Of a DNA stretch of 29,405 nucleotides, positions 463 through 29,199 are shown piece after piece; position 1 is the first letter of the stretch; every line of letters begins with the position of its first letter. Origin of the DNA: Candidatus Zixiibacteriota bacterium (GTDB taxonomy: Bacteria; RBG-13-66-14; B26-G2; WVWN01); the NCBI GenBank assembly GCA_030613505.1, contig JAUWLW010000037.1, positions 1-29,405 on the forward strand, read 5' to 3'. Both the position numbers and the translations under genes were made by a program. Below the pieces are notes generated by a model that was not told where the DNA came from, did not search any database, and saw nothing but the letters and a program-made list of their open reading frames with translations.

Positions 463-1434
463 ATGAAGAGGGTAACGACGATTGTGGCCGCGGCGCTGGC
501 GCTGGCGGCCGTTTGCGCTTCGGGCGATTGGGTCTACGAGGGTCAGTGGGGCTCCCTTGGCTCGGGCGACGGCGAATTCGCCAGGCCTAACGGCATTGAC
601 GTGGCCCCGGGCGGCAGGGTCTACGTCGCCGATCTCGCCAACCACCGGATCCAGTACTTCAGCCCCATAGGCAAGTTCCGCGGGAAGTGGGGTTCGCAGG
701 GCTCCGGTTACGGCGAATTCAACATGCCCTGGGACGTCGCCGTAGGCGTTAATGGCCACGTCTACGTGGCCGATACGTTCAACTACCGGATCCAGCATTT
801 CAACGGCACCGGTTCGCTGTACAACATATGGGGCTCCGAAGGTACAGGCAACGGCCAATTCAAAAGAGCCGTTGGCATAGCGGCATCCCCGGACGGCAAT
901 ACAGTCTACGTCGTAGATTTGATGAACTGCCGGATCCAATATTTTAACCGTTACGGCTTATACCTCGGCCAGTGGGGGTCGTTGGGCTCCGGCAACAGCC
1001 AGTTCCAAACGCCAGAAGGTATCGCGGTCGCGCCGAACGGTAACGTCTACGTCGCCGACACTGGCAATATGCGGATTCAATACTTCACCTCGAGCGGGTC
1101 CTTCCTCGGCAGGTGGGGTTCAGGTGGTACGGGCGACGGCCAATTCAGATTGCCTAAGGACGTTGGCGTCGCGCCGAACGGCGACGTCTACGTCGCCGAC
1201 AGCGACAATTACCGTATCCAGTACTTCACGGCTTCGGGTTCCTTTCTCGGCAAGTGGGGCTCGCAAGGGTCGGGCAAAGGGGAATTCGAACAACCTTTTA
1301 ACGTGGCCGTAAACCCCTCCGGCGATAGGGTTTACGTCTCCGATTACGACAACCACTGGATCCAGTACTTCAAGTGGGTTAACGTCGCCGTGACGCCTAC
1401 TTCCCTCGGCCGCGTCAAGGCGCTATTCAGGTAA
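463..1434 (+). CDS. Exported six-repeat NHL beta-propeller protein with C-terminal SLGRVKALFR tag
   Basis: A 323-residue protein. Residues 1 to about 20 form a Sec signal peptide (Lys-Arg, then an Ala/Val/Leu core ending at Ala-Ser-Gly). The rest is six NHL repeats of about 47 residues, each with a W-G-S-x-G-S/T-G-x-G-x-F strand, a V-Y-V-A-D strand and N-x-R-I-Q-Y-F. Six repeats make one closed beta-propeller, a fold that usually binds proteins or glycans; no catalytic residues are evident. The last ten residues are SLGRVKALFR, directly after the last blade with only a short linker. The start is set by AGGAGGT 8 bases upstream. It appears monocistronic, with terminators on both sides. Its closest relative in the window is the protein at 19379, of almost the same length and repeat pattern. 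Ligand and surface location are inferred. Confidence 0.9.
   Translation: MKRVTTIVAAALALAAVCASGDWVYEGQWGSLGSGDGEFARPNGIDVAPGGRVYVADLANHRIQYFSPIGKFRGKWGSQGSGYGEFNMPWDVAVGVNGHVYVADTFNYRIQHFNGTGSLYNIWGSEGTGNGQFKRAVGIAASPDGNTVYVVDLMNCRIQYFNRYGLYLGQWGSLGSGNSQFQTPEGIAVAPNGNVYVADTGNMRIQYFTSSGSFLGRWGSGGTGDGQFRLPKDVGVAPNGDVYVADSDNYRIQYFTASGSFLGKWGSQGSGKGEFEQPFNVAVNPSGDRVYVSDYDNHWIQYFKWVNVAVTPTSLGRVKALFR
1402..1434 (+). other. C-terminal tag SLGRVKALFR, copy 1
   Basis: Codes for the last ten residues plus stop (TAA) of the NHL protein at 463. The tag is preceded by VAVTPT. Codons differ from the other three copies at several third positions, and Leu uses CTA here. Confidence 0.85.
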
Positions 1435-1450
1435 CGGCACATCTTCCAAG

Positions 1451-1480
1451 AAACGCCCGGTTTGCGCCGGGCGTTTTATT
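1451..1480 (+). terminator. Rho-independent terminator after the NHL gene
   Basis: AACGCCCGG (1452-1460) and CCGGGCGTT (1467-1475) form a perfect 9-bp stem with a six-base loop, followed by TTTTATTT. Confidence 0.85.
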
Positions 1481-1550
1481 TAAGAACTCCGTGGCATTTA
1501 CCTCGCGACGCCATAATTTTGACTTCCGCCCGCTGCCTACCGTTGTTAAT

Positions 1551-4127
1551 ATGCAAGCCGTTATGTTCCGCTCCCGACGCTCTCCGGCCGCGGCCTTTAT
1601 TATCGCCCTGTTCTTCGTCTCCGGCGCCGCGGGCCTGGTGTACGAGGTCGTCTGGATGCAAATGCTGGCGGTGACGCTGGGCGGGACGGCGCCGGCGGTG
1701 GCCGCGGTGCTGGCGGCGTTCATGGGCGGCCTCGCCCTCGGCAGCGCGTTCGGCGGCCGGGCGGTGGACCGCTTCGGCAAGCCGCTTTTGTGGTACGCCG
1801 GCCTGGAGTTATTCGTCGGCCTGTACGCGCTCGCGTTCCCCTTTATTTACCGGGCGGCGGACGGCCTGTACTTCGCCGCGTACGAGCCGGGCGCGGCCGG
1901 CGCGCTGCACCTGCTGCGTTTCGGCGTCGCGTGCTTGCTCTTGCTGGCGCCGACGGCGGCGATGGGCGCGACGACGCCGGCGGTGGTCGCGGCGTTGAGG
2001 GAGTACGGCGGCGGTACGTCGCGGTCCTTTTCGGGCGCGTACGCCGCCAATACGGTAGGCGCCGCGACGGGGGTTTTGCTGGGCGGCTTCTGGCTGCTGT
2101 GGGCCGCCGGCGCGAGCTTGACGCTCAAGGTCACGGCCTCGGTGAACCTGGCCGTCGCCGTCGCGGCTTGCGTCGTCGCGCTGCGGCAGCGCGGCGAGGC
2201 CGTCGCGGCCGAGGCGGCGCCGGCGGTCCCGCCCGGGCGAAGGGCGCCGACGTGGCGGGCGGCGGCCGCGGCCTTTATCGCCGGCGGGGCGGCGCTCGCG
2301 GCGCAGGTACTCTGGACGCGGGCGCTGGCCAACGTCGTGGGCTCGGCGACGTACGCGTTCGCGGCGACGCTGGCGGTTATCCTGTTAGCGATAGCCGCGG
2401 GCGCGGCGGTCCACCGCCGGGTGGGGCCGGAGGTGGGCGGCTCGTCCTTGTTCTACGGCGCGTGCTGCCTGGCGGCGGGGGCCGGCCTCGCGGCCAGCGT
2501 CGTAGCCCTGCGCGGCGCACCCTATCTTTTCCTGGTCGTGTACGGCGCCGCGGGCGGCGGCTTCGGCGTCGCGCTGGCGTTGGTGTTCGCCATAGCCGCG
2601 TTCGTTCTTTTCGTACCGTCGTTCTTCCTGGGTATAATCCTGCCGGTGACGGTAGCGGCGGCGCGGCGACGGGCGGCCGGGAAGCGGGTCGGGTACCTCT
2701 ACGCCGCCAATACCGCGGGCGCGATCGCCGGCAGCGTGGTCGGGACGTTTTTATTGTTACCATGGCTCGGGCCGGCGGGCGGCCTGCGCCCGGTGGCTTT
2801 GGCGGCGATAGCGGCGGCCTTCGTGTGGGGCGTCTCGCGACGGCGCGTCTTCTGGCAAGGACCTTTGGCCGTAGCGCTCGCCGCGTTGGTCGTCGTCGCC
2901 CCCGGGCCCAGCCCCCATACGCTCGCGCTCGGCGCCGGCATAAGCCCCGGATACTACCTCGACGAGGACGGCAAACCCACCTTCGACGAAGCGGCGCAAG
3001 AGGAGTTGTTGTTCTACGAGGAGAGCGTCGACGCCTCGGTGGCCGTCATCTCGTACGGGCCGATTCGCTCGTTGAAGATAAACGGCAAGACCGTCGCCTC
3101 CACCAACTACGACGACGTGCGGGTCGAGCGGGCGTTGGGCGAGCTGCCGCTGCGGGAATTCGGCGAGATAGGCGTCGACAGCCGCGACGTCGCCGATGAC
3201 GTGCTCGTTATCGGCCTCGGCACCGGCATCACGCTGGGCGCGGTGACGAGCGACCCCCTGCTTAGGAACGTCGTGTGCGTTGAAATCAACCCGGCCGTCG
3301 CCGCGGCGTCCCGTTATTTCGACCACGCCAGCGGCGCTCCCTTGGACGACCCCCGCGTCGAGCTAGTCCGCGAGGACGGCCGCTCGTACGTCCTCGGCAC
3401 GAAGAAACGGTTCGACGTCATAACGTCCGACCCGATACACCCCTGGACCAAGGGCTCGTCGTCGCTTTTTACGGTCGAGCACTTCCGCAACTGCGCGCGG
3501 ATTTTGGAGCCCGGCGGCGTGATGGCGCAGTGGCTGCCGCTGTACCAGCTTGCGCCCGAGGATTATCTGACCGCGGTCCGGTCTTTCGCCGGCGCTTTCG
3601 ATTACGTCAGGTTGTACTACACCGGCCGCGATACCGTCCTAATCGGTTCGAAAACCCCCTGGCTCGAGAAGAAAATAACGCGACCTTATTTGATAGCGAG
3701 TGACGAGGCCGTCCACAAACTCGTCGCCGACGTGGAACCCAATACCGAGGACCGGTTGATTCTGGAGTACACGGCGCCGCGCTCCCTCTACGAGAAGACG
3801 GACGTGGACAACCTGGCGACGCTGGCGGACCTGCGGGCCGAAGGAGGCGACGACGAGCATCGCGCGGTTACGGCGTTGATCGAGGGCCGGCTGTCGTACC
3901 TGAGGGGTGAGGAGGACGAGGCCGTAGCGGCGTACCGGCGAGGCCTGGCGCTATGGCCGGAGAACGAGGACCTACGCCAGGCGCTGGCCGATATTTATTT
4001 CGAGTGGGGTATGACGGCCGCGGAGGCGGGCGACGACGCCCGGGCGCGGGAGTGGTTCGGCGCCGTGTTGGAGCTTGCGCCGGGCGACGAGGCCGCGGCG
4101 GCTAATCTTGAGGCGCTGGAGGGGTAG
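1551..4127 (+). CDS. Fused polytopic membrane / spermidine-synthase-like protein with C-terminal TPRs
   Basis: About 858 residues. The N-terminal half is a run of roughly twelve to fourteen hydrophobic segments starting FFVSGAAGLVYEVVW, the usual opening of the 'fused MFS/spermidine synthase' family. A soluble SpeE-like Rossmann domain follows, with the SAM-loop motif VIGLGTGITLG (about residue 553), an acidic strand end VCVEINP, and DPIHPWTKGSSSLFTVEHF, which matches the family's D-P-x-H sequence and gatekeeper region. The last 90 or so residues form two TPR-like helical pairs. Family members are thought to transfer aminopropyl or related groups, but the substrate of the membrane-fused forms is not established. 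The frame is open back to GTG at 1491, but that lies next to the terminator. ATG 1551 or 1563 better fits the family start; neither has a clear Shine-Dalgarno sequence. Its last 26 bases overlap the convergent gene at 4102. A paralogue is at 12273. Confidence 0.85.
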   Translation: MQAVMFRSRRSPAAAFIIALFFVSGAAGLVYEVVWMQMLAVTLGGTAPAVAAVLAAFMGGLALGSAFGGRAVDRFGKPLLWYAGLELFVGLYALAFPFIYRAADGLYFAAYEPGAAGALHLLRFGVACLLLLAPTAAMGATTPAVVAALREYGGGTSRSFSGAYAANTVGAATGVLLGGFWLLWAAGASLTLKVTASVNLAVAVAACVVALRQRGEAVAAEAAPAVPPGRRAPTWRAAAAAFIAGGAALAAQVLWTRALANVVGSATYAFAATLAVILLAIAAGAAVHRRVGPEVGGSSLFYGACCLAAGAGLAASVVALRGAPYLFLVVYGAAGGGFGVALALVFAIAAFVLFVPSFFLGIILPVTVAAARRRAAGKRVGYLYAANTAGAIAGSVVGTFLLLPWLGPAGGLRPVALAAIAAAFVWGVSRRRVFWQGPLAVALAALVVVAPGPSPHTLALGAGISPGYYLDEDGKPTFDEAAQEELLFYEESVDASVAVISYGPIRSLKINGKTVASTNYDDVRVERALGELPLREFGEIGVDSRDVADDVLVIGLGTGITLGAVTSDPLLRNVVCVEINPAVAAASRYFDHASGAPLDDPRVELVREDGRSYVLGTKKRFDVITSDPIHPWTKGSSSLFTVEHFRNCARILEPGGVMAQWLPLYQLAPEDYLTAVRSFAGAFDYVRLYYTGRDTVLIGSKTPWLEKKITRPYLIASDEAVHKLVADVEPNTEDRLILEYTAPRSLYEKTDVDNLATLADLRAEGGDDEHRAVTALIEGRLSYLRGEEDEAVAAYRRGLALWPENEDLRQALADIYFEWGMTAAEAGDDARAREWFGAVLELAPGDEAAAANLEALEG

Positions 4128-5175
4128 GCGCGAGGTCTGCGCAGGCAAGCAGCGTTTGCAGTTGGCCCGGCCGGTCGTAGGGCCAAATGAACTCGGCAGC
4201 GGCCTCGTGGGCGCGGGCCGCTACTTCCGCCGCTACGTCCGGATTATGTAAGACGAAAATAATCCGGTCCGCGAGCGCCTCCGGGTCGTCCGGGGGGGCG
4301 AGGAAGGCCGTCTCGCCGTCGCGTACGAGGAACGGGACGCCGCCCACCGCGGCGGCCACCACCGGCACGCGGGCCCACATCGCCTCCAGCACGCTGTTGG
4401 GGTGGTTGTCGTCGCGGGTGGAGTTGACCACCAGCGTCGCCCTTTGCAGGTATGGTATAAAGTCCTCGTGGGGGAGGAAGCCGTGGAACCGCACGCGGCC
4501 CGGCGCGATCTCCCGGGCGAGGCGCTCGAGCTTGGGCCGGTCCACGCCGTCGCCGCACAGGTGGAGCTCGGCCTCGGGGAACTCGCGGACGACTTTCCCG
4601 AAAGCGCGTACGGCCACGTCGACGCCGCCCACGTAGTCGTGGCGCCGGGGACACAGGATGAGCGGCGGCCCGTCGGCCCCGGCCGCGCGAACGGGCAACC
4701 GGGACACGTCGACGATGTCCGGTACGACGCAAGCCCGCATCCCGAATTTCGCGAAGACGCCCTGGAGGTAGCGCCCCGGGACGACGACGGCCCGCGCGAG
4801 GCGGGAGATGGGGCGGACGAGCCATCCCCACTTGCGAAAGAAGAACCGCGCCAGGCCGCCCTTGTACATCAATATCGCCGGCGCGCCGAAGAGCCGCGCG
4901 ACGACGAGCGGTACCGTCGAGAAAGCGAAGAACGACGCGTACGAGCCGCCGAAGATTAATACCAAATCGCAGCGCCGCAGCTTGCGCAGCTCGCGCAGGA
5001 CGTGCAAGAAACGCAGCGAGCGCGGCTTGCGCCGGCCGAAGGGGTTGGTATTAATCGTGACGACGTGTGCGCCGTCCCGGGCCAGGATCTCGGCGAGCAT
5101 CCGTGCCTGGTGCGGCATTCCGCCGGGCGGCGGCGGGAACGCGGCGACGATAGCTACTTTGGTCTTTGACGGCAC
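4102..5175 (-). CDS. Glycosyltransferase family 4 (GT-B fold)
   Basis: A 357-residue protein, the only clear minus-strand gene here. It begins with KVAIVAAFPPPPGGMPHQ, the typical first beta strand and glycine-rich loop of GT4 enzymes. The middle carries ARAVVVPGRYLQGVF and the interdomain strand LILCPRRHDYVGGVD. The C-terminal GT1/GT4 signature is RVRFHGFLPHEDF, then NSTRDDNHPNSVLEAMWARV (the E-x7-E-like donor site) and VPVVAAAVGGVPFLV. Such enzymes move sugars from nucleotide donors to lipid or polysaccharide acceptors at the inner membrane; the acceptor cannot be told. The start is GTG at 5175 with AAGGA about 11 bases upstream. It overlaps the convergent gene ending at 4127 by 26 bases and diverges from the NlpC/P60 gene across about 100 bases. 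Confidence 0.88.
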   Translation of the reverse strand: MPSKTKVAIVAAFPPPPGGMPHQARMLAEILARDGAHVVTINTNPFGRRKPRSLRFLHVLRELRKLRRCDLVLIFGGSYASFFAFSTVPLVVARLFGAPAILMYKGGLARFFFRKWGWLVRPISRLARAVVVPGRYLQGVFAKFGMRACVVPDIVDVSRLPVRAAGADGPPLILCPRRHDYVGGVDVAVRAFGKVVREFPEAELHLCGDGVDRPKLERLAREIAPGRVRFHGFLPHEDFIPYLQRATLVVNSTRDDNHPNSVLEAMWARVPVVAAAVGGVPFLVRDGETAFLAPPDDPEALADRIIFVLHNPDVAAEVAARAHEAAAEFIWPYDRPGQLQTLLACADLAPTPPAPQD

Positions 5176-5278
5176 CGGTAATTTAATCCTTGAAATTTCG
5201 ACCGTTTTAACCTAATCATTCTATAAGGAATAGCAATAAAAGTCAAATGCCGTGGCGCCGACGAGCCGCGGCGAGGAT
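5176..5278. promoter_or_regulatory. Divergent intergenic region, AT-rich, probable back-to-back promoters
   Basis: This is the only divergent gene pair in the window. The segment is strikingly AT-rich against its surroundings. On the + strand TATAAG at 5222-5227 is a possible -10 box, but no good -35 box is at the right distance. Promoters for both flanking genes are inferred to lie here. Confidence 0.35.
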
Positions 5279-6298
5279 ATGAAGGCCAGAATAATATTGC
5301 TAATTACGGCCTGGGCGACGGGGAGCGCCGCCGCGGGTTGGTTCCAAAAAGCCGACTGGCTGGCGGCGGTGACGTACCGCCAGGCCGAGGACGCGATCTA
5401 TTTCGACACCACCGGCGAGCTGCCGCCGCAGGTGAAGGTCGTCGCCCAGGGCGCCCCCAACCTCATAAAGCTCGAGCTCGTCAACCTGCGCATAAACCCC
5501 CGCATCTATACGTTATCGCCGCGCGACGACGTCGTTATCGACATCCGCTTGGAAGGTTTCGAGGAGCGCGGCCGCTCGCGCGTCGAGGTCGCTGTCGACC
5601 TGGCCAAGCCGTTCGAGTACGAGCTCGAGCGGCGCCAGGTGGAGGGCGGCGTCTCGCAGGTAATATTGCGATTGACCAACGTCGACGTGACGCGCGTCCA
5701 ACCCGACGCGGCCGGCAAGGCGCCGCTGTACGCCCGCCCCGCGGCCGGCGCCCCAATAGTGGCGTACGTCCACTACCATACTCGCGTCGAGGTTTACGAC
5801 TACGCGAAGGAGATGTACCTGGTAAAGCCGCCCGACGGCACGCTGGGTTGGGTCAAGGGGGAGAATTTAAAGATAGAGGGCGATAATCCTTTCGTAAAAG
5901 AGGAGCCCCTTCCGCTTCCCACCACGCCCCGGAGCGAGATCGTCGCCACCGCCAAGAAGTACCTGGGCGTGCCGTACGTCTGGGGCGGGACGTCGGCGGA
6001 CGGCTTCGACTGCTCGGGCCTGGTCCAGACGGTCTTCGCCGAGAACCGCGTATCGCTGCCGCGCGGTTCCGGAGACCAGTACCGCAAGGGCCGCAAGATT
6101 TCCAAGGGGGGTATGAGGCCCGGCGACCTGGTGTTCTTCCGGACTTATACTTCCGGGCCGTCGCACGTCGGCATCTACGCCGGCGACGGTAAATTTATAC
6201 ACGCCGAGTCGTCGCCGCGCGGCGTTACCGTAACGCCGCTGAGCCAACCGTACTGGGACGAGCGCTTCCTCGGCGCGCGGACGTGGCTCGCGGACTAG
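5279..6298 (+). CDS. Exported NlpC/P60 family peptidase with AMIN-like and SH3 domains
   Basis: A 339-residue protein from ATG 5279, chosen because it puts a Sec signal peptide (MKARIILLITAWATGSAAAG) at the very N-terminus; GTG 5252 would add nine residues before it. Residues about 25-135 resemble an AMIN-type envelope-targeting domain, and about 145-200 an SH3_3-like domain (LYARPAAG, then GWVKGENLKI). The C-terminal 120 residues are NlpC/P60. Catalytic Cys is at about 245 in DGFDCSGL, His at about 296 in SHVGIY, and a third His at about 308 in FIHAES. The family cleaves gamma-D-Glu to diamino acid bonds in peptidoglycan, so this is probably a periplasmic cell-wall hydrolase. It has no SLGRV tag. 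The GAGGA at 5273 is very close to the start, so the exact start is slightly uncertain. Confidence 0.9.
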   Translation: MKARIILLITAWATGSAAAGWFQKADWLAAVTYRQAEDAIYFDTTGELPPQVKVVAQGAPNLIKLELVNLRINPRIYTLSPRDDVVIDIRLEGFEERGRSRVEVAVDLAKPFEYELERRQVEGGVSQVILRLTNVDVTRVQPDAAGKAPLYARPAAGAPIVAYVHYHTRVEVYDYAKEMYLVKPPDGTLGWVKGENLKIEGDNPFVKEEPLPLPTTPRSEIVATAKKYLGVPYVWGGTSADGFDCSGLVQTVFAENRVSLPRGSGDQYRKGRKISKGGMRPGDLVFFRTYTSGPSHVGIYAGDGKFIHAESSPRGVTVTPLSQPYWDERFLGARTWLAD

Positions 6299-6369
6299 TT
6301 GGGTTTTACGTAGAACGAAACCCGGGCGAGTCTAATAATATTTAGACGTTACGCCGGCGCAAATAACGT

Positions 6370-6399
6370 TTGGCGCGATCTTTCGCCGTATGTTATAGT
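6370..6399 (+). promoter_or_regulatory. Sigma-70-type promoter for the fumarase-beta gene
   Basis: TTGGCG (6370-6375), an 18-base spacer, and TATAGT (6394-6399) preceded by TG at 6391-6392 make a good housekeeping-type promoter with an extended -10 element. Predicted transcription start is near 6406, about 65 bases before the GTG start. Confidence 0.5.
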
Positions 6400-6470
6400 G
6401 GCACAATCGGGCCGTGCCCCTCTTCGGCGCGGCGGCGTTGTATTTACTTCCGGCGTGGAGGTGCTTTGTC

Positions 6471-7025: not shown

Positions 7026-7964
7026 ATGTCGGCGGACGAGAAGGAAACGGGTCGCGTAAGTCGGCGCGAGTTTTTAAAGGCCGGCGCCGCCGCGGGCGCG
7101 TTTGCGGTCCTGGCGGGCGCGTTCCCCGAGGTGGTATGGGCCGGGGAGCGCGGGCGGCCGGACCTCTCCGGCCTGGGCGAACTCGTCAACCCGTACGACG
7201 TGGCCGTGGCGCCCGACGGGACGGTGTACGTCGCCAACGCCGGCCGCTACGGCGTCGTGCGGCTCGCCGCGGGAGAGGGCCGTTACCTGGGCACCGGGCC
7301 CGGGACCGCCGACGGCCGGTTCAACTTCCCCATGGGCGTGGACGTCACGGCCGACGGCGGCGTCTTCGTCGCCGACACCAACAACGGCCGCATTCAAGTG
7401 TTCGACGCCGACGGCGTTCACGTACGGACCTTCGGGCGGCTGGGCTACCTCGACGGCGAGTTCCTCCGGCCGAAGAGCGTTTGCCGCTACGAGGCCGGCG
7501 CGCTCGTGGCCGATACCCGCAACCACCGCGTCCAATACGTCGACCTCCAGAGTACGAGGTTGGCCTCCGACGAGCCGGTCACGCGCGCCATATTGGGCGG
7601 CCTGGGCGACGGCCCCACGGACCTCAAGCTGCCGCGGTACGTCGCGGCCGACGCCGAGAAGCGCATTTACGTGGCCGACGCCGGCCACGCCGTCGTGAAA
7701 GTGTTCGACCTCGGCGGCGACGTGACGGCGACGCTCGGGCGGGGCATTTTGCTGGAACCGGCGGGTATCGCGACCGCCGACGGGACGACCTTCGTAGCGG
7801 ACGCCGGCGCGGCGCGCGTGGTGGCGTTCGGTAAAAACGGCCGCAAGCTCGGCGCGCTTAAAGGATTGACGGGTTTGAAAGAGCCGCGCGGCGTCGCGCT
7901 GGCCGACGGGTACCTCCTCGTCGCGGACCCGAAGGCGGCGCGCGTCTTCGTGGCCGAGGTTTAA
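7026..7964 (+). CDS. Tat-exported NHL beta-propeller protein
   Basis: 312 residues. The N-terminus carries a twin-arginine motif, SRREFLKAG, followed by an Ala-rich core ending near VVWA, so it is exported folded and may be membrane-anchored. The rest holds about six NHL-type blades (for example VYVANAGRYGVV, VFVADTNNGRIQVF, YVADAGHAVVKVF). Tat export suggests it folds or takes a cofactor in the cytoplasm, but no cofactor motif is visible. It ends in RVFVAEV with no SLGRV tag, unlike the Sec-exported NHL proteins at 463 and 19379. It begins on the base after the fumarase-beta stop. Its role is unknown; a link to fumarase is only by position. Confidence 0.82.
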   Translation: MSADEKETGRVSRREFLKAGAAAGAFAVLAGAFPEVVWAGERGRPDLSGLGELVNPYDVAVAPDGTVYVANAGRYGVVRLAAGEGRYLGTGPGTADGRFNFPMGVDVTADGGVFVADTNNGRIQVFDADGVHVRTFGRLGYLDGEFLRPKSVCRYEAGALVADTRNHRVQYVDLQSTRLASDEPVTRAILGGLGDGPTDLKLPRYVAADAEKRIYVADAGHAVVKVFDLGGDVTATLGRGILLEPAGIATADGTTFVADAGAARVVAFGKNGRKLGALKGLTGLKEPRGVALADGYLLVADPKAARVFVAEV

Positions 7965-17766: not shown

Positions 17767-18348
17767 ATGGCCGAAGACGAGCGAGAAGAAGAAAAGCCGC
17801 GCGTGAAGTGGATCCCGCGGTCGCGCGACGTCGACAAACCGGCGGCGCTCCCCGGCATTCACCGCTACGCGCCGTTCACGAACTTGACGGACCGGATGAC
17901 GACGCCCGCGCTCAACCGCGCCGTCATGGTGGGCATCGGCGCCGCGGTGGCGCTGGACGTCCTACGCCCCATCGCGCTCGGGATGTGGGACGCGGCGTAC
18001 TGCTACGAGTGCCGGGCGTGCTACGCGACGCTGGAGAAATGCCCGGCGTCGATAACGTTTCAGGCCGAGCTCACGGTAGCGTGCCGCACGATGGATTACC
18101 GCCGCTTCGTCAAGAACCGCGGCCTGCTGTGCATCCGCTGCGGGAACTGCAACGGCTTCTGCGTCCAACACCTCAACCTGGCCGACATCTTCGGCAAGAT
18201 GGGGGTGGCGACGGCGCGCGCCGTTCGCGAGGGGAAGGTCCCGTTCGACGTCGTCGAGGGGGCCATCTACGAGGGCGTAATAGGTCGCGAGTATATCGAC
18301 GAAATCTACGAGTGGTACCGCTCGAGCGGGGGGCGCCGCCTTGGCTAA
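17767..18348 (+). CDS. Membrane-anchored protein with two Cys clusters, redox operon
   Basis: 193 residues. A charged N-terminus (about 47 residues) is followed by one membrane segment at about 50-73, then two iron-sulfur-type Cys sets: C79, C82, C85 and C92 (CxxCxxC then six residues before CP), and C122, C125, C128 and C132 (CxxCxxCxxxC). The second is a standard 4Fe-4S ferredoxin motif. The first has an unusually long last gap. There is no signal peptide and the N-terminus is acidic, so side of the membrane is unclear. It overlaps the FMN-binding gene by 8 bases, so the two are made together and probably pass electrons to each other. It is a short electron-transfer protein rather than a known named subunit. 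Confidence 0.8.
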   Translation: MAEDEREEEKPRVKWIPRSRDVDKPAALPGIHRYAPFTNLTDRMTTPALNRAVMVGIGAAVALDVLRPIALGMWDAAYCYECRACYATLEKCPASITFQAELTVACRTMDYRRFVKNRGLLCIRCGNCNGFCVQHLNLADIFGKMGVATARAVREGKVPFDVVEGAIYEGVIGREYIDEIYEWYRSSGGRRLG

Positions 18349-19378: not shown

Positions 19379-20347
19379 ATGGGGCGTTGCGTTTTGGCGG
19401 GTTCGGTCGCCGCCGCTGCGTTGCTGGGAGCGGCTTCCGGCGAGTTCTTGTACGAGAACGAGTGGGGCTCTTTCGGTACCGGGCCCGGGCAATTTAATCA
19501 GCCGTTCGGCGTCGACTGCGACGTGAGGGGGAACGGCCTCGTATACGTAGTCGAGTATCTAAACCATCGAGTCCAGTATTTTACGGCTACCGGCGGCTAT
19601 TTGGGGCAATGGGGGTCGTACGGGACCGGGGACGGCGAGTTCCGTTACCCGTGGGGCGTAAAGGCGAGGTGGGGCCGCGTTTACGTGAGCGACACCCGCA
19701 ATCACCGCATCCAGTACTTCACGCACGCGGGAAGTTTCCTCGGCAGGTGGGGGCGGTACGGAGCGGGTGACGGCCGGTTCAGCAATCCGCGCGGGATCGC
19801 GGTTACGCGGGAAGGTTGCGTCTACGTCGTCGACTGCTTAAACCACCGCATCCAATATTTCACGAGCGACGGCTCTTTTTTAGGGAAATGGGGAACGAAG
19901 GGCGACGGCGACGGCCAATTCAACGGCCCCCGGGGGATTTTAATCCCGCCGTCAGGCAAGGTTTACGTTGCGGATAAAATGAATAATAGGATCCAGTATT
20001 TTACGCCGGACGGCGTATTTCTCGGGAAGTGGGGCCGAGAAGGCAAAGGGAACGGCGAGTTCACAGGCCCGCGCGGCCTCGCCGGGCCGGGGGACGGCCG
20101 GATCTTCGTGACCGACGAATATCGCGACCGCGTGCAGTACTTTACGCACGACGGTAGTTTTCTCGGCGCGTGGGGGATGCGCGGCTCGGGCCCGGGCGAG
20201 TTTCGCTTGCCGGCGAGTTGCGCGTTCGGCCCCTACGGTTGGTTTTACGTGGCCGACGAGAGGAACCACCGCATTCAGTATTTCCGGGAATCCCGGCCCG
20301 CGGTGGAATCGGATTCCCTCGGGCGCGTGAGAGCCTTGTTTAAATAA
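19379..20347 (+). CDS. Exported six-repeat NHL protein with C-terminal SLGRVRALFK tag
   Basis: 322 residues from ATG 19379 (GTG 19376 also possible; GAGGGG at 19364-19369 serves both). Signal peptide residues 1 to about 20, then six NHL repeats of about 47 residues with W-G-x-x-G-x-G-x-G-x-F, V-Y-V-x-D and N-H-R-I-Q-Y-F, closely like the protein at 463 and of nearly equal length. It ends SLGRVRALFK. It sits inside the redox operon, two bases before the heptaheme cytochrome start, so it is likely made with the electron-transfer proteins. NHL propellers bind other proteins; a docking role for a cytochrome or an outside partner is my inference. Confidence 0.88.
   Translation: MGRCVLAGSVAAAALLGAASGEFLYENEWGSFGTGPGQFNQPFGVDCDVRGNGLVYVVEYLNHRVQYFTATGGYLGQWGSYGTGDGEFRYPWGVKARWGRVYVSDTRNHRIQYFTHAGSFLGRWGRYGAGDGRFSNPRGIAVTREGCVYVVDCLNHRIQYFTSDGSFLGKWGTKGDGDGQFNGPRGILIPPSGKVYVADKMNNRIQYFTPDGVFLGKWGREGKGNGEFTGPRGLAGPGDGRIFVTDEYRDRVQYFTHDGSFLGAWGMRGSGPGEFRLPASCAFGPYGWFYVADERNHRIQYFRESRPAVESDSLGRVRALFK
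20315..20347 (+). other. C-terminal tag SLGRVRALFK, copy 2
   Basis: Last ten codons plus TAA. It differs from copy 1 by two conservative changes (Lys to Arg, Arg to Lys) and by several silent changes (GGG, GTG, AGA, TTG, TTT). Confidence 0.82.
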
Positions 20348-21646: not shown

Positions 21647-22330
21647 GTGGAAGAGGTCGAAAAGGTAACTATCAGCATTATGGGCCGGGAGTACCGCGTG
21701 CCCGCGGGCCTTACCATCCTGCAGGCGATGGAGTTATCCGGCTACCGGTTGGTGCGCGGCGTGGGCTGCCGCGGCGGCGTGTGCGGCGCCTGCTCGGCTG
21801 CGTACCGCGTCGCGGGCGACTATCACCTCAAGTCCGGCCTGGCGTGCCAGACCGTCGTCGAGGACAATATGGAGCTGGTCCAGCTGCCGTTCTTTCCGGC
21901 CAACAAGGCCGTGTACGAAATAGAGACGACGGTGCCCACCGAGAAGACGCTCCTGGAACATTATCCCGAAATAACCCGCTGCATGGGCTGCAATTCGTGC
22001 ACGCTGATCTGTCCTCAGAACCTCGAGGTTATGGAATATATGTCCGCGGCGCTCTGCGGCGACGTCGAGAAAGTGGCCAAGCTCTCGTTCGAGTGCATCC
22101 TGTGCCGGCTGTGCACGACGCGCTGCCCGGCGGACGTGGTCCAGCCGTTCGTCGCCATTCTGGCGCGGCGTCTCTACGGCCGTCACCTGGCGCCGTCCTC
22201 GCCCCACCTTGCCAGGCGCGCCGGCGAAATCGAGGAGGGCGGGTTCGAGGCCGATATCGGCGAAATGAAGAAGAAGAGCGCCGACGAGCTGCGGGAGTTG
22301 TATAAAGCCCGGGACATCGAGCCCCAATAA
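21647..22330 (+). CDS. 2Fe-2S plus 4Fe-4S protein (SdhB/FrdB/HdrC-like)
   Basis: 227 residues from GTG 21647 with AGGAGG 8 bases upstream. The N-terminus is a plant-type 2Fe-2S ferredoxin: VPAGLTILQAMELSGY, then C41, C46, C49 and C67. The C-terminal part has two 4Fe-4S motifs, RCMGCNSCTLICPQ and ECILCRLCTTRCPAD, in the arrangement of fumarate/succinate dehydrogenase iron-sulfur subunits and HdrC-like proteins, although FrdB has one 4Fe-4S and one 3Fe-4S. It is soluble. It likely collects electrons from a cytoplasmic dehydrogenase or thiol/fumarate-type reductase and passes them to the membrane-anchored ferredoxin. The catalytic flavoprotein is not in the window. Its stop overlaps the start of the next exported protein (TAATG). 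Confidence 0.85.
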   Translation: MEEVEKVTISIMGREYRVPAGLTILQAMELSGYRLVRGVGCRGGVCGACSAAYRVAGDYHLKSGLACQTVVEDNMELVQLPFFPANKAVYEIETTVPTEKTLLEHYPEITRCMGCNSCTLICPQNLEVMEYMSAALCGDVEKVAKLSFECILCRLCTTRCPADVVQPFVAILARRLYGRHLAPSSPHLARRAGEIEEGGFEADIGEMKKKSADELRELYKARDIEPQ

Positions 22331-23205
22331 TGGCCAGGGTAATCATATGCGCGGCCGTCGCGGCCGCGGCGGCCTTCTCGGCCCACGCCACCCACGGCAT
22401 CCTGCTCGTCTCGGACCAGGTGGACGGCGTCGCCGACCCACAGCCGTTCGACCGCTATTACATAAGGGCGCTACGCGACGCCTACCCAAAAGCAAAAGTC
22501 ACGTACGTGGTGTGGAACCACTGGGAGCAGGGCGAGCCGACGTTCGAGGATTTACGTAAATACAAAGTCGTAATCTGGTTCACCTCCACCTCCGGCGACG
22601 CCCCCGCCTCCGACCCCCTGCGCGGCAACATTACGCTCTCGCCGTCGGAGCAGGAATCGCTCGTCGCGTTCCTGAGCCGGACGCCCGGGACGACGACGCT
22701 GATGCTCTCCGGGATGTACATCGCCTGGAACTGCGTCGCCGACGCCGTCCGCGAGAAGCAACTGTACAAGCCGCTGTTCTCCGACTACCTCAAGCTCAAA
22801 TACCCCCACGACAACTTCGACAAGTGGATCACGGTGGAGGACAATTGGAGGCTCGTCGGCGAAGCCGGGTGCCCCATCTTCAAGGGGAATACTTATGCCA
22901 TCAATTGGCGCCACCACCGGAACTTCCCGGACCAGCTCGAGCCGGCGGCGGGCGGCGGTTCGGCCCGGTGGGAGGACGCCGGCCGCAAGCGCCACCACCG
23001 CGCCGTAATCCGCGCCCGGGGGGAAAAATCTAACGGCGGGACGTACAAGATCGTCCTCTTCTCCTGCCCCTTCGAGAACATCCAGCACGACGGCGACCGC
23101 GCCGAGGTCATGAGGAATTTCTTGGAGTGGGCGGGGGGTTGGCCTTTCGAGGAGGTCGCCGTCGAGCCCGCCAGCCTCGGCCGCGTCAAGGCCCTCTTTC
23201 ACTGA
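22330..23205 (+). CDS. Exported protein with Rossmann-like (GATase1/ThuA-type) domain and C-terminal SLGRVKALFH tag
   Basis: 291 residues, starting one base inside the previous stop. Signal peptide residues 1 to about 20 (MARVIICAAVAAAAAFSAHA). The mature part begins HGILLVSDQVDGVADPQPFD, has YYIRALRDAYPKAKVTYVVW, LRKYKVVIWFTSTSG and TTTLMLSGMYIAWN, the beta strand and helix order seen in class I glutamine amidotransferase-like domains of exported proteins in FCB-group bacteria, where 'L-x-x-Y-x-V-V-I-W' and 'L-x-L-S-G' are common. The usual catalytic Cys of true GATases is not at the expected place, so it may be a binding domain. It ends SLGRVKALFH. Translation coupled to the redox protein at 21647 suggests it belongs to that operon. 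Confidence 0.78.
   Translation: MARVIICAAVAAAAAFSAHATHGILLVSDQVDGVADPQPFDRYYIRALRDAYPKAKVTYVVWNHWEQGEPTFEDLRKYKVVIWFTSTSGDAPASDPLRGNITLSPSEQESLVAFLSRTPGTTTLMLSGMYIAWNCVADAVREKQLYKPLFSDYLKLKYPHDNFDKWITVEDNWRLVGEAGCPIFKGNTYAINWRHHRNFPDQLEPAAGGGSARWEDAGRKRHHRAVIRARGEKSNGGTYKIVLFSCPFENIQHDGDRAEVMRNFLEWAGGWPFEEVAVEPASLGRVKALFH
23173..23205 (+). other. C-terminal tag SLGRVKALFH, copy 3
   Basis: Last ten codons plus TGA, after AVEPA. Ser uses AGC and the last residue is His, showing that the final position only needs to be basic or polar. Confidence 0.82.
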
Positions 23206-23230
23206 AATCCTTTCCGCTTCCGGGAGATAA

Positions 23231-23896: not shown

Positions 23897-23981
23897 CGTG
23901 CGTTCCGAACACGCGCACATGTACTTGGCCCGCGGGTCGGCGGGGAAGGGGGGCGCCGCCGCGGCCCGGGCGGCGTGCTCG

Positions 23982-24057
23982 TCGCTTCGCCGCGAGCTGA
24001 GGATATGGTGTCGGCGCCTCGCCCGGAGGCTGCGAAGCGAACCGGCGCGCGAGGCGC
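23982..24057 (+). other. Interleaved inverted repeats with pseudoknot geometry, between the DedA and PseG-like genes
   Basis: TCGCTTCGC (23982-23990) pairs perfectly with GCGAAGCGA (24032-24040), and GCGCCTCGC (24014-24022) with GCGAGGCGC (24049-24057). The order A-B-A'-B' is that of an H-type pseudoknot. A weak 60-codon reading frame over 23898-24080 has no ribosome site and Arg/Ala-rich content, so I read the segment as non-coding. Function unknown; chance pairing in GC-rich DNA is possible. Confidence 0.35.
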
Positions 24058-24070
24058 ACCACTCGAGCGG

Positions 24071-24086
24071 GCGGCCTTAAGGCCGC
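24071..24086. terminator. Perfect palindrome hairpin, possible terminator
   Basis: GCGGCC, TTAA, GCCGC-containing arm GGCCGC: a 6-bp perfect stem with a four-base loop, followed by an AT-rich stretch TTAATAATTTATT but no pure T-run. It may end the operon upstream or work in both directions. Confidence 0.4.
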
Positions 24087-24102
24087 TTAATAATTTATTG
24101 TG

Positions 24103-25110: not shown

Positions 25111-25114
25111 CGGT

Positions 25115-25984
25115 ATGTTGGCCGAGATAGAAACAGCGCTCGGCAAGGGCGCCGCGCGAGCGGTGGCGGCTAGGCCGGCGGTTACGTTAGCCGACGAGGT
25201 TTACGCCCGGGCGCTGGCGGCGCTGTGCCGGGAACGCGGGTGGCGCCTCCACCCGTGGGCGGGCGGCGAGCCGCCGTCGCCGGACCTTCCGCCGGAAACC
25301 GTTTTGGTAACGCCCGGGCCCGGGCTGACGGGGGAGTTCGCCCTCGCCGCGGACGATTATTATTGCGAGGCGCCGGCGCCGATGACCCTCGGCGAGCTCG
25401 AGGGGAAGCTTGAGGGGACGCCGCTGTGGCTGCCGTTCGCGGCGCCGGCCGGCGCGGCGACGGCGCTGGGCGAATTAGTCGCGCGGTACCCGGCCAACGC
25501 GTTCGCGCCGGCGTACGGCGAGCTCCATCGCCTTCTCTTCGGCCTTTCTTTCGTAAACGACGACGGCGAGCTGGTGTCGACGGGCCGCAGGACGATAAAG
25601 GGCGTCGCCGGCTACGACTTATCCAAGCTCTTCTTGGGCTCGCGCGGTAGCGCCGGCCTGATAACGCGCGTGCGGCTCCGCCTATTCCGGCGCCCGGCGG
25701 AAGCGGTTTTTTGGCGCACGCGGGGCGCAACGCCGGGCGACGCGGCTTCGGGAGGGCGTGTTTGCCGGCTCGAGGCGGACGGCGAGACGCTGCTCTACGC
25801 CGACGGCCACCCGGGCGACGTCGACGCTGCCGCGGAACGGCTCCGGCGCGCGATGCCGGACCTGGCCGAGGTATCCCGCGGCGACGCCGCCAGCCGCGAT
25901 TTCGCCGCGGCCGTAGCCGCGCTGCCGTACCGGCCGCCCGCCGAACCTCCCGCCGCGCCGGCGTTCTCCGATTTATTTATTTAA
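25115..25984 (+). CDS. GlcE-like FAD-binding protein (glycolate oxidase accessory subunit type)
   Basis: 289 residues. The middle is an FAD-binding type 4 (PCMH) domain of the GlcE kind: FGLSFVNDDGELVSTGRRTI, then KGVAGYDLSKLFLGSRGSAG and LITRVRLRLFRRPA, the strongly conserved GlcE blocks. The N-terminal segment, which in GlcE forms the first FAD loop (P-x-G-x-G), is represented by LPFAAPAGAATALGE and looks divergent. The whole is shorter than the roughly 350 residues of E. coli GlcE. GlcE works with GlcD and GlcF to oxidise glycolate or D-lactate, but no such genes are near. It may be a remnant or a solo enzyme. It forms a pair with the PseG-like gene and is followed by a terminator. Confidence 0.78.
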   Translation: MLAEIETALGKGAARAVAARPAVTLADEVYARALAALCRERGWRLHPWAGGEPPSPDLPPETVLVTPGPGLTGEFALAADDYYCEAPAPMTLGELEGKLEGTPLWLPFAAPAGAATALGELVARYPANAFAPAYGELHRLLFGLSFVNDDGELVSTGRRTIKGVAGYDLSKLFLGSRGSAGLITRVRLRLFRRPAEAVFWRTRGATPGDAASGGRVCRLEADGETLLYADGHPGDVDAAAERLRRAMPDLAEVSRGDAASRDFAAAVAALPYRPPAEPPAAPAFSDLFI

Positions 25985-26008
25985 GCCGGCAACTTCGGGG
26001 CCGGTTTT
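25983..26008 (+). terminator. Rho-independent terminator after the GlcE-like gene
   Basis: CCGGC (25986-25990) pairs with GCCGG (26000-26004), extended outward by G-T and A-T pairs to eight in total, and ends in TTTT. Overlaps the stop codon. Confidence 0.7.
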
Positions 26009-26036
26009 ACGTATTTATTATTGAGGAGAGGCGGGA

Positions 26037-26660
26037 GTGGTTTGCCCTCACCTCGATTTATTCGCCGCTATGGAAGCCGCGGTATCCGCAAATGAAGCCG
26101 ACGCCGACAGCGCCCTCGCGCAACGCGCGGCCGCGGGTGACGAGACCTCGTTCGAAGACCTCGTCAACAAATATAGCCGCCGCATATTGGACTATTGCCG
26201 GCGGCTGGTAGGCGACGCTACCGTAGCCGAGGACCTGGCGCAAGAAACTTTCGTAAAATTTTACCTCGGCCTATCCGGCTTTGACCCCTACAAGCGCGTT
26301 TCTCCCTATTTATATCGTATCGCTCACAACCACTGTCTCGATTGGCTCCGCAAGAAGAGGGTGCCGACGGTCCCGCTGGTTTGGGAAGATGAAGAGGGGC
26401 GAGGACTCCGGGAGGCGGACGTGCCGGACCGGACGCTGGCGCCGGACGAACTCGTCGAACGGCTCGAGGTTCGGCAGGTGATCGACGACGCGCTGGCGGC
26501 GCTCCCGCCGACGTACCGCGGCGCGCTCATTATGCGGCACCGCGAGGGGATGTCGTACGAGGAAATTGCGGAGGCGCTCGAGATGCCGCTCGGGACCGTG
26601 AAGGCGCGCATCCACCGCGGCCGCGAAAAGCTGCAACAAAAACTGGCAAAATACGTATGA
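26037..26660 (+). CDS. ECF-type RNA polymerase sigma factor
   Basis: 207 residues from GTG 26037 with GAGGAG 8 bases upstream. Region 2 is SFEDLVNKYSRRILDYCRRL, then DATVAEDLAQETFVKFYL (the conserved D-A-E-D-x-x-Q-E-x-F block) and YLYRIAHNHCLDWLRKK, which melts and reads the -10 box. Region 4 is ALPPTYRGALIMRHREGMSY, then EEIAEALEMPLGTVKARIHR, a helix-turn-helix for the -35 box. An acidic linker of about 40 residues separates the regions. The next gene is a zinc-finger anti-sigma factor, so activity is probably held by that partner until an envelope signal arrives. Likely target: this operon and the envelope genes it controls. Confidence 0.93.
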   Translation: MVCPHLDLFAAMEAAVSANEADADSALAQRAAAGDETSFEDLVNKYSRRILDYCRRLVGDATVAEDLAQETFVKFYLGLSGFDPYKRVSPYLYRIAHNHCLDWLRKKRVPTVPLVWEDEEGRGLREADVPDRTLAPDELVERLEVRQVIDDALAALPPTYRGALIMRHREGMSYEEIAEALEMPLGTVKARIHRGREKLQQKLAKYV

Positions 26661-26677
26661 GATAATGGAGAACGACG

Positions 26678-27277
26678 ATGGCGGAAAAATGCCCGAAAAT
26701 TAAAGGTTTGATGCACGCGGCGCTCGACGGCGAGCTTGACGCGGAAGCGCGGGTCCGTTTCGACGAGCATCTCGCCGCTTGCCCGCGGTGTCGGCGCGAG
26801 TACGAGGTTTTGACGGGGGCGGTTGCCGCGTTCGAGGCCGCGCCCCGGCTCGAGCCCTCGTCCGACTTCGCGGCGAGCGTAATGAATCGTGCCCGCCTCG
26901 CGAAAAGCCGCCAGGCCCGCGTCCGGCGTGCGTTCGCGCGCGTTACGATAGCCGCGTCCGCCGCGGCGGCCGCGGCTGCGGCCGGCGCGTGGGCGTGGTT
27001 ATTCAAACCGGCGCTCGGGGCCGCGGCGGCCGGGGCTTTTAACGGCCTGGTGACGGCTGTGGTCGACTACTGGAAGGTCGCCCGGGCCCTCGCCGTCCCG
27101 GCGGACGTGATTGGGAAGCTCGCCTCGGCGCTGGGGTCGGCGGGTTCGCAGCTCGCCTGGGAAGGGCTCAAGTCATCGTCGCCGGTTTACGCGGGCGCGT
27201 TCGTCGCCGTCGCGTTCTTCTACCTGGTGTGGCGCGTCGGCTCTCGGGCCGCGGCGCCGCTGGTACGGATCATATAA
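26678..27277 (+). CDS. Zinc-finger (ZAS-type) anti-sigma factor
   Basis: 199 residues, starting 18 bases after the sigma gene, with GGAG before the ATG. The N-terminal domain holds C5 and then H31, C35 and C38 in HLAACPRC, the zinc-binding anti-sigma motif (H-x3-C-x2-C). Membrane segments lie at about 88-108 and 168-185. The N-terminal domain should face the cytoplasm and hold the ECF sigma factor; the loop between the two helices is short and Ala-rich and could sense the envelope. It is one of the clearest partner assignments in the window. Confidence 0.88.
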   Translation: MAEKCPKIKGLMHAALDGELDAEARVRFDEHLAACPRCRREYEVLTGAVAAFEAAPRLEPSSDFAASVMNRARLAKSRQARVRRAFARVTIAASAAAAAAAAGAWAWLFKPALGAAAAGAFNGLVTAVVDYWKVARALAVPADVIGKLASALGSAGSQLAWEGLKSSSPVYAGAFVAVAFFYLVWRVGSRAAAPLVRII

Positions 27278-27316
27278 AAGCTTTTTTATTCCCGATCTTT
27301 AATTAAGGAGAGAAAA

Positions 27317-28420
27317 ATGAAAGCGCTATTGCCTATCACGGTCCTCCTAACGCTGAACTTGGCCTTCGTCGCGGCGCAGCCCGCTCTCGCGCAGGAGCCC
27401 GAGACGGCGGCCGCGGCGACCGCGGCGACCGGCGAAACGGCCGCCACGGCCGAGACCGCGGCGACGGGCGAAACGGCGCTCGCGGAGCCGCGCGTGAAAG
27501 TTGAAGTGCGTTGCGAGGAGGGCGACGGCGAGGACCGCGTAGCCTTCGGGCAGGACCTCGTTATAGAAGAGGGGGAAGTCGTGGAAGGCGACGCCGTATG
27601 CATCGGCGGTAACATGACCGTCAGGGGAACGGTGAACGGCGACGTCGTGTGCATCGGCGGCCACCTCCGCGTCGAACCCACCGCCGTCATCTGCTGCGAC
27701 GCGGTGAGCGTGGGCGGCACCGCGGACATCTCGCCCCAGGCCGAGGTCGGCGGCGAGCGAGTGAGCGTCGAGGGCGACATCCCCGGCCTGAAAGGCCTTA
27801 AGTGGTTCGGCGTACTGGGCGAAGCCGCGAGCGACCTCTCCAAGCGGATCGTGGAAGTGGTGAAGGAGGTCGTCTTCTTCGGCTTCCTGATGTTGGTCGC
27901 GCTCTTGCTCACGGTGTTCCTGCCCCGTCAGTTCGGCCGCGTCGACGAGCACCTCGACGGCGACTTCCCGCGCTCGGCGCTGCTGGGCGTGGGGATAATG
28001 ATCCTGTTGCCGGTGGCGCTGGTCTTCATGGCTGTATCCATCATCGGCATCCCGTTGATTCCCATAGTAATACTCGCCGCCGTCGTGGCGATATTCGTCG
28101 GCTACGTCGTGATGGCGCGGATAATAGGCCGCCGGCTCGTCGGCGAGAAGCACGTTATGTTCCAGATCTTCATCGGCCTGCTCCTGCTGCACGGTGCCGC
28201 GCTTCTGGGCGACATAATCGCGTTGCCGGGCGGCCCGATGGAGACGATCGGCGGCATATTCACCGGCGTCGGCAAGATAATCTTCATCGCCGCCTCCGGG
28301 ATAGGCATGGGCGCCGTCGTCTACTCGCGCTTCGGCAAGCGGACCCTCGCGGAGACGGAGGCCGCGCGCGAGGCGAAGAAGAACAACAATAAAACCTCCC
28401 CTCCCGCGAAAGCCGGGTAG
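27317..28420 (+). CDS. Bactofilin-like polymer-forming domain fused to membrane helices
   Basis: 367 residues with AAGGAGA before ATG 27317. Signal peptide residues 1 to about 25, ending ALAQ. Residues about 28-56 are a low-complexity Thr/Ala/Glu repeat of the type TAATGETA. About 65-145 is a right-handed beta-helix of short turns: GDAVCIGGNMTVRGTVNGDV, then VCIGGHLRVEPTA and AVSVGGTADISPQA, as in bactofilin/polymer-forming proteins. The last part has five or so membrane segments and a basic tail. Proteins of this layout (beta-helix, then membrane region) often follow an ECF sigma/anti-sigma pair, so it is the likely output or sensor of that system. Whether it polymerises outside the membrane is inference. 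A terminator follows. Confidence 0.82.
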   Translation: MKALLPITVLLTLNLAFVAAQPALAQEPETAAAATAATGETAATAETAATGETALAEPRVKVEVRCEEGDGEDRVAFGQDLVIEEGEVVEGDAVCIGGNMTVRGTVNGDVVCIGGHLRVEPTAVICCDAVSVGGTADISPQAEVGGERVSVEGDIPGLKGLKWFGVLGEAASDLSKRIVEVVKEVVFFGFLMLVALLLTVFLPRQFGRVDEHLDGDFPRSALLGVGIMILLPVALVFMAVSIIGIPLIPIVILAAVVAIFVGYVVMARIIGRRLVGEKHVMFQIFIGLLLLHGAALLGDIIALPGGPMETIGGIFTGVGKIIFIAASGIGMGAVVYSRFGKRTLAETEAAREAKKNNNKTSPPAKAG

Positions 28421-28441
28421 ATCTGCAAGGGGACGTTTGAG

Positions 28442-28468
28442 AACCCGGCCGCAAGGCCGGGTTTTTTT
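28442..28468 (+). terminator. Rho-independent terminator after the ECF operon
   Basis: AACCCGGCC (28442-28450) and GGCCGGGTT (28455-28463) form a perfect 9-bp stem with loop GCAA, followed by a T-run to 28468. Confidence 0.9.
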
Positions 28469-28505
28469 CGGGCCGTTTTGCGTAGCGTCGCGCGCGAATA
28501 CGTCT

Positions 28506-28551
28506 TATACTGAGTGGAGAAATAATCCGGCGTTAAGGGAAGCGAGGAGGT
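28506..28551 (+). promoter_or_regulatory. Putative -10 box and strong ribosome site for the small exported protein
   Basis: TATACT at 28506-28511 is a good -10 box, with no convincing -35 box at 17 bases. AGGAGGT at 28545-28551, 6 bases before ATG 28558, is a near-perfect ribosome binding site, as for the tagged gene at 463. Confidence 0.4.
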
Positions 28552-28557
28552 ATTAAC

Positions 28558-29199
28558 ATGAAAAAGCTGACTCTTTTAATAATCCCATTTGCGGCGCTCG
28601 CGGCTTTCACCGGCGCGGCGGGAGCGACGGGCGTTCAGGTTACGGTCGACAACGGCTCCACGCAGAACCTGTTCCCGTGGTGGCCCATGGCCTTCCCGAG
28701 CGGCTGCCGCATCCAGATGCTCTTCGACCGGGAGGCCATCGACTACGCCGGCGCGGTGAACGAGTTCGAGCTGCAGAAGAGTTCGGCCGCGACGAGCACG
28801 TACGCCGGCGCGAAGTTCTACCTCTGCCATACGAGCCTGTCCGCTTTGACGACCAACTTCCAAAACAACTACGGCGGCAACACCCCCGCGCTCGTGGCCT
28901 CGTTCTCGAGCTACAACCTGCCGCCGCGCAGCGGCTTCTATCCGGTCCCGATGGCGACGACCTTCGCCTACAACAACGTCGACAACCTCATCCTGGAGAT
29001 AACGTACGAGAGCAGCTCGGGCGCCGGCGCGGGGCTGTACTGCGGCAGCATGTCGACGCACCACCGCTGCTTCGGTCGCGGCAGCTCCGCGGAGAGCGGG
29101 ACCGTCGACTACTGGGGCTACAACGCGCGCCTCTCGTTCTCGTATTACCCCGGCGTAGCGCCGGCCTCCCTCGGCCGCGTGAAGGCTTTGTTCCGGTAA
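28558..29199 (+). CDS. Small exported protein with beta-rich domain and C-terminal SLGRVKALFR tag
   Basis: 213 residues. Sec signal peptide residues 1 to about 22 (Lys-Lys, hydrophobic core, ending AAGA). The mature part is rich in Ser, Tyr, Asn and Gly and looks all-beta: VQVTVDNGSTQNLFPWWPMA, FELQKSSAATSTYAGAKFYL, NVDNLILEITYESSSG, and YWGYNARLSFSYYP near the end. This carries the feel of carbohydrate-binding or jelly-roll surface domains found in exported proteins of related phyla, but I cannot name a family. Four Cys could form two disulfides. It ends SLGRVKALFR after GVAPA. It stands alone between terminators with a strong ribosome site, so it may be highly expressed. Confidence 0.82.
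   Translation: MKKLTLLIIPFAALAAFTGAAGATGVQVTVDNGSTQNLFPWWPMAFPSGCRIQMLFDREAIDYAGAVNEFELQKSSAATSTYAGAKFYLCHTSLSALTTNFQNNYGGNTPALVASFSSYNLPPRSGFYPVPMATTFAYNNVDNLILEITYESSSGAGAGLYCGSMSTHHRCFGRGSSAESGTVDYWGYNARLSFSYYPGVAPASLGRVKALFR
29167..29199 (+). other. C-terminal tag SLGRVKALFR, copy 4
   Basis: Last ten codons plus TAA, identical in protein sequence to copy 1 but with different codons (GTG for Val, GCT for Ala, TTG for Leu, CGG for Arg). Confidence 0.85.

Follow-up and report, generated by a model that had tools for sequence, protein, structure and literature searches.

A short C-terminal tag on unrelated Sec-exported proteins of Candidatus Zixiibacteriota and other phyla, and its association with the type IX translocon SprA

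The analysis we present concerns a short tag at the very C-terminal end of Sec-exported proteins, found in the genome of a Candidatus Zixiibacteriota bacterium (assembly GCA_030613505.1) and in other phyla. That it is a protein-level signal, as the initial annotation of this DNA had suggested, is strongly supported because the tag recurs, its position is exactly C-terminal, its carriers have signal peptides and unrelated folds, no family model covers it and it reappears in other phyla. Since it is almost confined to genomes with the type IX secretion system (T9SS), it would seem to be an undescribed label that directs proteins to the cell surface, its mechanism being as yet unproven. The reading we favour, with moderate confidence only, is that of a short and new sorting signal at the C-terminus, recognized by the type IX translocon or by PorV-type carriers, this recognition being inferred and not demonstrated.

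In the window, that is, the whole stretch of 29,405 nucleotides that was analysed (contig JAUWLW010000037.1), four open reading frames end exactly in the tags claimed for them and run immediately into a stop codon, one of the four stops being different (Table 1). The likeness had been said to reside in the protein and not in a DNA repeat, and synonymous codons do differ throughout the four tags (GGC/GGG, GTC/GTG, AAG/AGA, GCG/GCC/GCT, CTA/CTC/TTG, TTC/TTT); a copied repeat is thus ruled out by the many silent positions at which they diverge. The description of the four carriers as unrelated has to be narrowed: unrelated folds are indeed present, but two of the proteins are homologous NHL propellers, so the window displays three unrelated carrier folds and not four. 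The proteins at 22330 and 28558 match no Pfam family above threshold and resemble neither each other nor the NHL propellers; the domain of the former, without a Pfam match, was called GATase-like in the initial annotation, and the latter belongs to a paralogous family with at least 13 members in the genome. The ends of the open reading frames also bear out that the Tat-type NHL protein, the NlpC/P60 protein and the TPR proteins of the window lack the tag. Between positions 17767 and 22330, genes for Fe-S, FMN-binding and NapC/NirT cytochrome c proteins, which form an electron-transport cluster, are interleaved with those of tagged proteins.

Table 1. Tagged proteins and tags of the window, a tag-less NHL protein for contrast, and paralogs with an in-frame UGA elsewhere in the same genome
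Feature	Position	Strand	Remarks
Sec signal peptide and NHL beta-propeller protein, tag-terminated	463..1434	+	PF01436, E 2.2e-47; ORF list; AlphaFold2
Tag SLGRVKALFR, preceded by VTPT	1402..1431	+	stop TAA directly after
Tat-type NHL protein without tag (contrast)	7026..7964	+	TAT_signal PF10518, TIGR01409
Second Sec signal peptide and NHL beta-propeller protein, tag-terminated	19379..20347	+	~50% identical to the 463 protein
Tag SLGRVRALFK	20315..20344	+	stop TAA directly after
Sec signal peptide and domain without Pfam match, tag-terminated	22330..23205	+	own similarity cluster
Tag SLGRVKALFH	23173..23202	+	stop TGA directly after
Sec signal peptide and beta-rich domain without Pfam match, tag-terminated	28558..29199	+	
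Tag SLGRVKALFR	29167..29196	+	stop TAA directly after
UGA paralog, same genome	L031:~4730-5503		
UGA paralog, same genome	L041:~3740-4485		
UGA paralogs, same genome	L047, ORFs ending 2743, 4265, 5065, 5743		

Over the whole source genome (2.86 Mb), a strict degenerate DNA pattern gives 72 matches against 1 for the reversed pattern, and a looser one, with one more codon and the stop, 127-128 against 0 for the control; these counts come from DNA pattern searches and from the stretches read around the 72 strict places. Three other genomes of the genus contain 58-85 matches to the strict pattern and 83-139 to the loose one, and other families of the same class 9-21 loose matches. The recurrence that was to be expected of a genuine tag, in this genome and in its relatives, is therefore found, in the source genome far above the reversed-pattern control. 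Nor is the motif an internal one: upon six-frame translation of the stretches read in the source genome, a single residue separates the stop codon from each of the 81 matches to the core [LFWYIM]G.[VIM][KRN]A[LIMVF][FYW], and no internal copy is found among the 81. A logo of 80 tails from this genome reads [AG]-V-x-P-x-S-[LF]-G-[RK]-V-[KR]-A-L-[FY]-[RKE] followed by the stop, with the G and the A invariant and the S retained in 79 tails; the consensus of the genus is identical from the V onward.

A home-made caller detects a signal peptide in 66 of the 88 tag ORFs of the source genome, to be compared with 69 of 177 other long ORFs of the same regions. In six more tag ORFs the signal peptide lies upstream of an in-frame UGA, and in two it is obvious to the eye but lacks a standard start codon; what remains are ORFs cut at a contig edge, short pieces left by frameshifts or chance matches to the loose pattern. 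A Sec signal peptide is present on nearly every carrier that could be read. Once signal peptide and tag are removed, the 66 full proteins fall into 10 unrelated similarity clusters, and the Pfam census consists mostly of NHL domains and propellers, with one cupredoxin and many proteins without domains. The initial proposal would have been refuted by an equal abundance of the motif in cytoplasmic proteins or by its being the end of a larger domain common to all carriers; the tag is absent from proteins clearly devoid of a signal peptide, and it does not terminate any larger shared domain.

The search for tag patterns was extended to 386 genomes, in which the form that crosses phyla is [ST]-[LFW]-G-x-[IVL]-K-[AST]-[LMI]-[FY]-[RKHEN]-stop, with a narrower consensus that has [RK] as its last residue. 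Multiple copies, in the W, L or F form, are found in the unrelated families f74 (25-38 copies), f71, f139, f30, f104, f178, f163 and f219; when K-[AST] is allowed, the W form reaches 48, 37, 31, 21, 19 and so on copies per genome, so that up to 48 proteins of a single genome are marked in other phyla. Outside the phylum of the source genome the W form spans 26 families. Among 43 tagged ORFs sampled from genomes of other phyla the tag is terminal in all 43 and a signal peptide is called in 37, and the bodies of 37 carriers from these phyla form 26 clusters. In genome G004 (L078, L079), a variant family ends in FG[RKN]IKAFF plus 3-7 extra residues, and in that related family the motif is thus not strictly terminal.

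Several families have only one or two matches, one of which falls in the same small protein, made of a signal peptide, an FN3/Ig-like sandwich and the tail TWGSIKA[LMI]FR. The tag is the same, but it is borne by a single conserved protein in each genome and not by a multitude of carriers. Among named genomes, a scan yields 286 stretches encoding [IV]xxTWGSIKA, 279 of which encode this single-copy protein, and the 80 stretches kept come from Ignavibacteria, Kryptonia, Calditrichota, KSB1, Neomarinimicrobiota, Zixibacteriota and records that bear no label beyond Bacteroidetes or bacterium. The protein family is an undescribed one and has no Pfam or NCBIfam model, and a fold search of the PDB returns only generic Ig/FN3-like sandwiches. 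In Ignavibacteria its gene is often located just upstream of a maf-like gene, in a neighbourhood made up mainly of Maf, a UPF0104-like membrane protein and other housekeeping genes (named by eye); in two Calditrichota (L129:1-3155, L130:7664-11243) it follows the gene of a large patatin-Omp85-like outer membrane protein, also identified by eye. No secretion partner was found in the conserved neighbourhoods of the two groups. This protein is possibly the ancestral bearer of the tag or a component of the machine.

These carriers allow us to judge the most economical explanation, according to which the tag is merely the inherited end of one duplicated gene family and has no signalling function. 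Such an expansion would fit the largest cluster of the source genome, a loose set of beta-propellers that accounts for 49 of the 66 tagged proteins, but the nine other clusters have only the tag in common, the carriers of other phyla are no less diverse, the codons of the window tags differ at silent positions, and the single-copy family keeps its tail practically invariant on a body with only ~35-45% identity to the reference. For the set as a whole this explanation is refuted, because the carriers are unrelated, and we regard it as having next to no chance of being correct.

Among the tagged paralogs of the 28558 protein in the source genome, six contain an in-frame UGA at one conserved site, in most of them within the context ...GC-UGA-G..., the signal peptide preceding the UGA and the tag following it without a change of frame. 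A similar SECIS-like hairpin can form in each of the six, ~15-20 nt after the UGA, and is absent from that place in seven paralogs that lack the UGA. Furthermore, a tRNA-Sec gene is detected in the genome at 66.7 bits (gathering score 47). These paralogs are probably a new selenoprotein family, and gene callers would consequently miss part of the tagged set.

Short C-terminal tags on unrelated exported proteins are already known, and the one reported here appears to be undescribed. The tags of the PEP-CTERM/exosortase, LPXTG/sortase, GlyGly-CTERM/rhombosortase and MYXO-CTERM/myxosortase systems are likewise short, C-terminal and carried by many unrelated exported proteins per genome, but their tails are tripartite and include a transmembrane helix and a basic tail, neither of which is present in our tag. 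Indeed, direct reading of the tails reveals no hydrophobic segment before the C-terminus, and an NCBIfam scan finds no match to TIGR04183, TIGR04131 or other C-terminal sorting tails in any of 64 tagged proteins, in agreement with the earlier statement that the tagged proteins have neither a membrane helix nor an Ig-like tail. That no known family model would account for the tag was equally correct, since none in Pfam or NCBIfam reaches the tagged tail. The strings TWGSIKA, GSIKALF, GSIKAMF, GRVKALF and WGRIKAL were not found in the literature searched. We consider the tag as new because it lacks the features that define those known classes against which it was tested, has no model and is not found in that literature.

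The closest likeness is with the type A C-terminal domain (CTD) of the T9SS (TIGR04183, Por_Secre_tail), which is also C-terminal, is borne by many unrelated Sec-exported carriers in the same genomes, has a basic/hydrophobic stretch at its end and tracks SprA. That domain is, however, an Ig-like one of ~70-100 residues read by PorV, whereas the tag comprises ~10 residues on a flexible linker, lies outside the folded propeller and goes with no match to the type A profile. The type B (TIGR04131) and type C (cl41395) CTDs offer a precedent for alternative signals using the same translocon with carriers of their own, PorP/SprF in the case of type B. They are about 100-200 residues long, unlike the tag, and the type B profile matches none of the 64 proteins; the type C CTD is a ~100-residue domain related to the ChiA C-terminus, and the region common to the tagged proteins covers only ~16 residues.

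As for the structure of the tag, the AlphaFold2 model of the NHL protein at 463 has a propeller with pLDDT above 90 and a disordered end (the last 13 residues, 311-323) outside the fold, and that of the single-copy protein has a well-modelled sandwich followed by a C-terminal helix, the tag, predicted with only modest confidence (pLDDT 64-72). The tag was described as amphipathic; the hydrophobic moment is as compatible with a strand as with a helix, and amphipathicity therefore leaves its structure unsettled. The tag could also be a site of attachment or processing, cut or joined to a lipid or a sugar in the manner of PorU-processed CTDs and of exosortase or sortase tails, and not an export signal. 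Invariant residues within the last ten positions and an exactly terminal placement would suit the substrate of an enzyme, with the V-x-P-x linker as a plausible spacer, but the membrane helix and basic cluster of exosortase, rhombosortase and LPXTG tails are missing and no family model matches. We hold this possibility to be quite improbable, while noting that it is compatible with sorting by the T9SS.

The partner of the tag was said to be unknown, and none is demonstrated here; the search is nevertheless narrowed, because the tag and the type IX translocon SprA tend to occur in the same genomes. The SprA_N domain (PF14349), sought in the same 386 genomes, is present in 107, those of the source phylum included. 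The W form occurs in 49 of the 386 genomes, 45 of which have SprA. Outside the source phylum, SprA is present in 40 of 43 genomes with the W form against 56 of 329 others (Fisher 1.3e-23), the three exceptions having single matches at the level of the reversed control, and it is present in all 15 genomes with at least two W tags. With the first pattern, SprA is found in 26 of the 28 genomes with at least two tags and, outside the source phylum, in 16 of 16 against 80 of 356; the two genomes without a SprA match are G004 (89% complete) and G002 (78% complete). The best candidate for the secretion gene that was to be looked for as following the tag across genomes is SprA. On the other side, 55-62 of the 107 SprA-positive genomes have no match with these tag patterns, so the T9SS alone does not require the tag. 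Moreover, the lineages bearing SprA are related, so that the genome counts overstate the number of independent events and shared ancestry could explain part of the association.

The SprA of the source genome scores 313 bits with the TIGR04189 equivalog model (cut-off 200), and its A6 profile matches PDB 6h3i (SprA) at 5e-35; judged from its sequence, it is certainly a bona fide SprA. In two species of the genus, sprA is adjoined by divergent tagged NHL genes just upstream. It is followed by two MotA/ExbB-type genes (L259:2912-11362 in the source genome; L262:5132-12573) and, in L259, by two ExbD/TolR genes after this pair, which suggests that an ExbBD-like motor serves the translocon in this genus. 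The T9SS has been described as confined to Bacteroidota (PMC10202324; PMC4793230); SprA_N and Por_Secre_tail CTDs occur in the source phylum despite this label. Barrels of the PorV/PorQ family, to which the known carriers belong, have about 10 paralogs in the source genome, and PorV_fam paralogs exist in every tag-positive genome tested. Classic Por_Secre_tail CTDs coexist with the tag in the source genome (48 matches), and the two are never together in the 64 tagged proteins scanned. The idea that the tag is the final motif of these CTDs is not convincing, their ends (e.g. ...TKKMVIAR) being different from it. A replacement of the tag by a CTD in NHL orthologs could not be shown either, because the NHL relatives outside the source order carry neither at their end.

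The main rival of the T9SS reading accepts a true C-terminal sorting or retention signal and assigns it to another, undescribed machine of the envelope in the same phyla, such as a periplasmic receptor for C-terminal peptides, a protease or a transferase, the link with SprA being phylogenetic. All the evidence of a signal fits it equally well, the presence of CTDs and tag in one genome makes a second machine conceivable, and no consistent clustering of tagged and PorV-family genes, hence no physical link, was found, but only scattered cases (G082, G223, G220). To this can be added that co-occurrence is not mechanism, that known CTDs tolerate C-terminal extensions (PMC11285876), unlike the tag, and that G004 and G002 have tags without a SprA match. 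Against the other machine stand the presence of SprA in every multi-tag genome outside the phylum, across several families, the tagged genes next to sprA in the source genus and the fact that no alternative machine has been identified. We consider it unlikely, without being able to dismiss it.

Canonical T9SS substrates combine a Sec signal peptide with a signal at the C-terminus, which attaches to the loops of a carrier within the SprA pore; its terminal motif and a conserved lysine are important, and a stretch of 22 terminal residues can be enough (PMC10202324; PMC10994853; PMC11285876). The known CTDs are Ig-like (PMC11285876). In the T9SS reading that we favour, Sec would first carry the tagged proteins across the inner membrane, and the tag on its flexible linker would then be recognized at the outer membrane, on the periplasmic side, most likely by SprA together with one of the ~10 carrier barrels of the PorV/PorQ family. 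The ten-residue tag would replace the much larger Ig-like CTD, and, by analogy, its invariant central K/R, terminal aromatic residue and base may constitute the minimal signal bound by a PorV-type barrel or by SprA. Binding to PorV loops or to SprA, passage through SprA, the final location and any cleavage of the tag are matters of inference, no binding or export data and no experiment being at hand. A more elaborate version, which we put forward tentatively and would not ourselves bet on, is that of a peptide-type T9SS signal which, in at least 26 families outside the phylum, does with ten residues the job of the Ig-like CTD of Bacteroidota and is derived from, or shared with, a single-copy exported FN3-like protein that would itself be part of the translocon.

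In conclusion, the tag would open the surface proteome of many uncultured phyla, in which many exported proteins are unannotated, to study from sequence. If the T9SS does read it, the tag gives a measure of how little a type IX signal needs, and the active system extends well beyond Bacteroidota. Some Ignavibacteria are cultured, and the presence of the single-copy tagged protein in this group makes the question testable.
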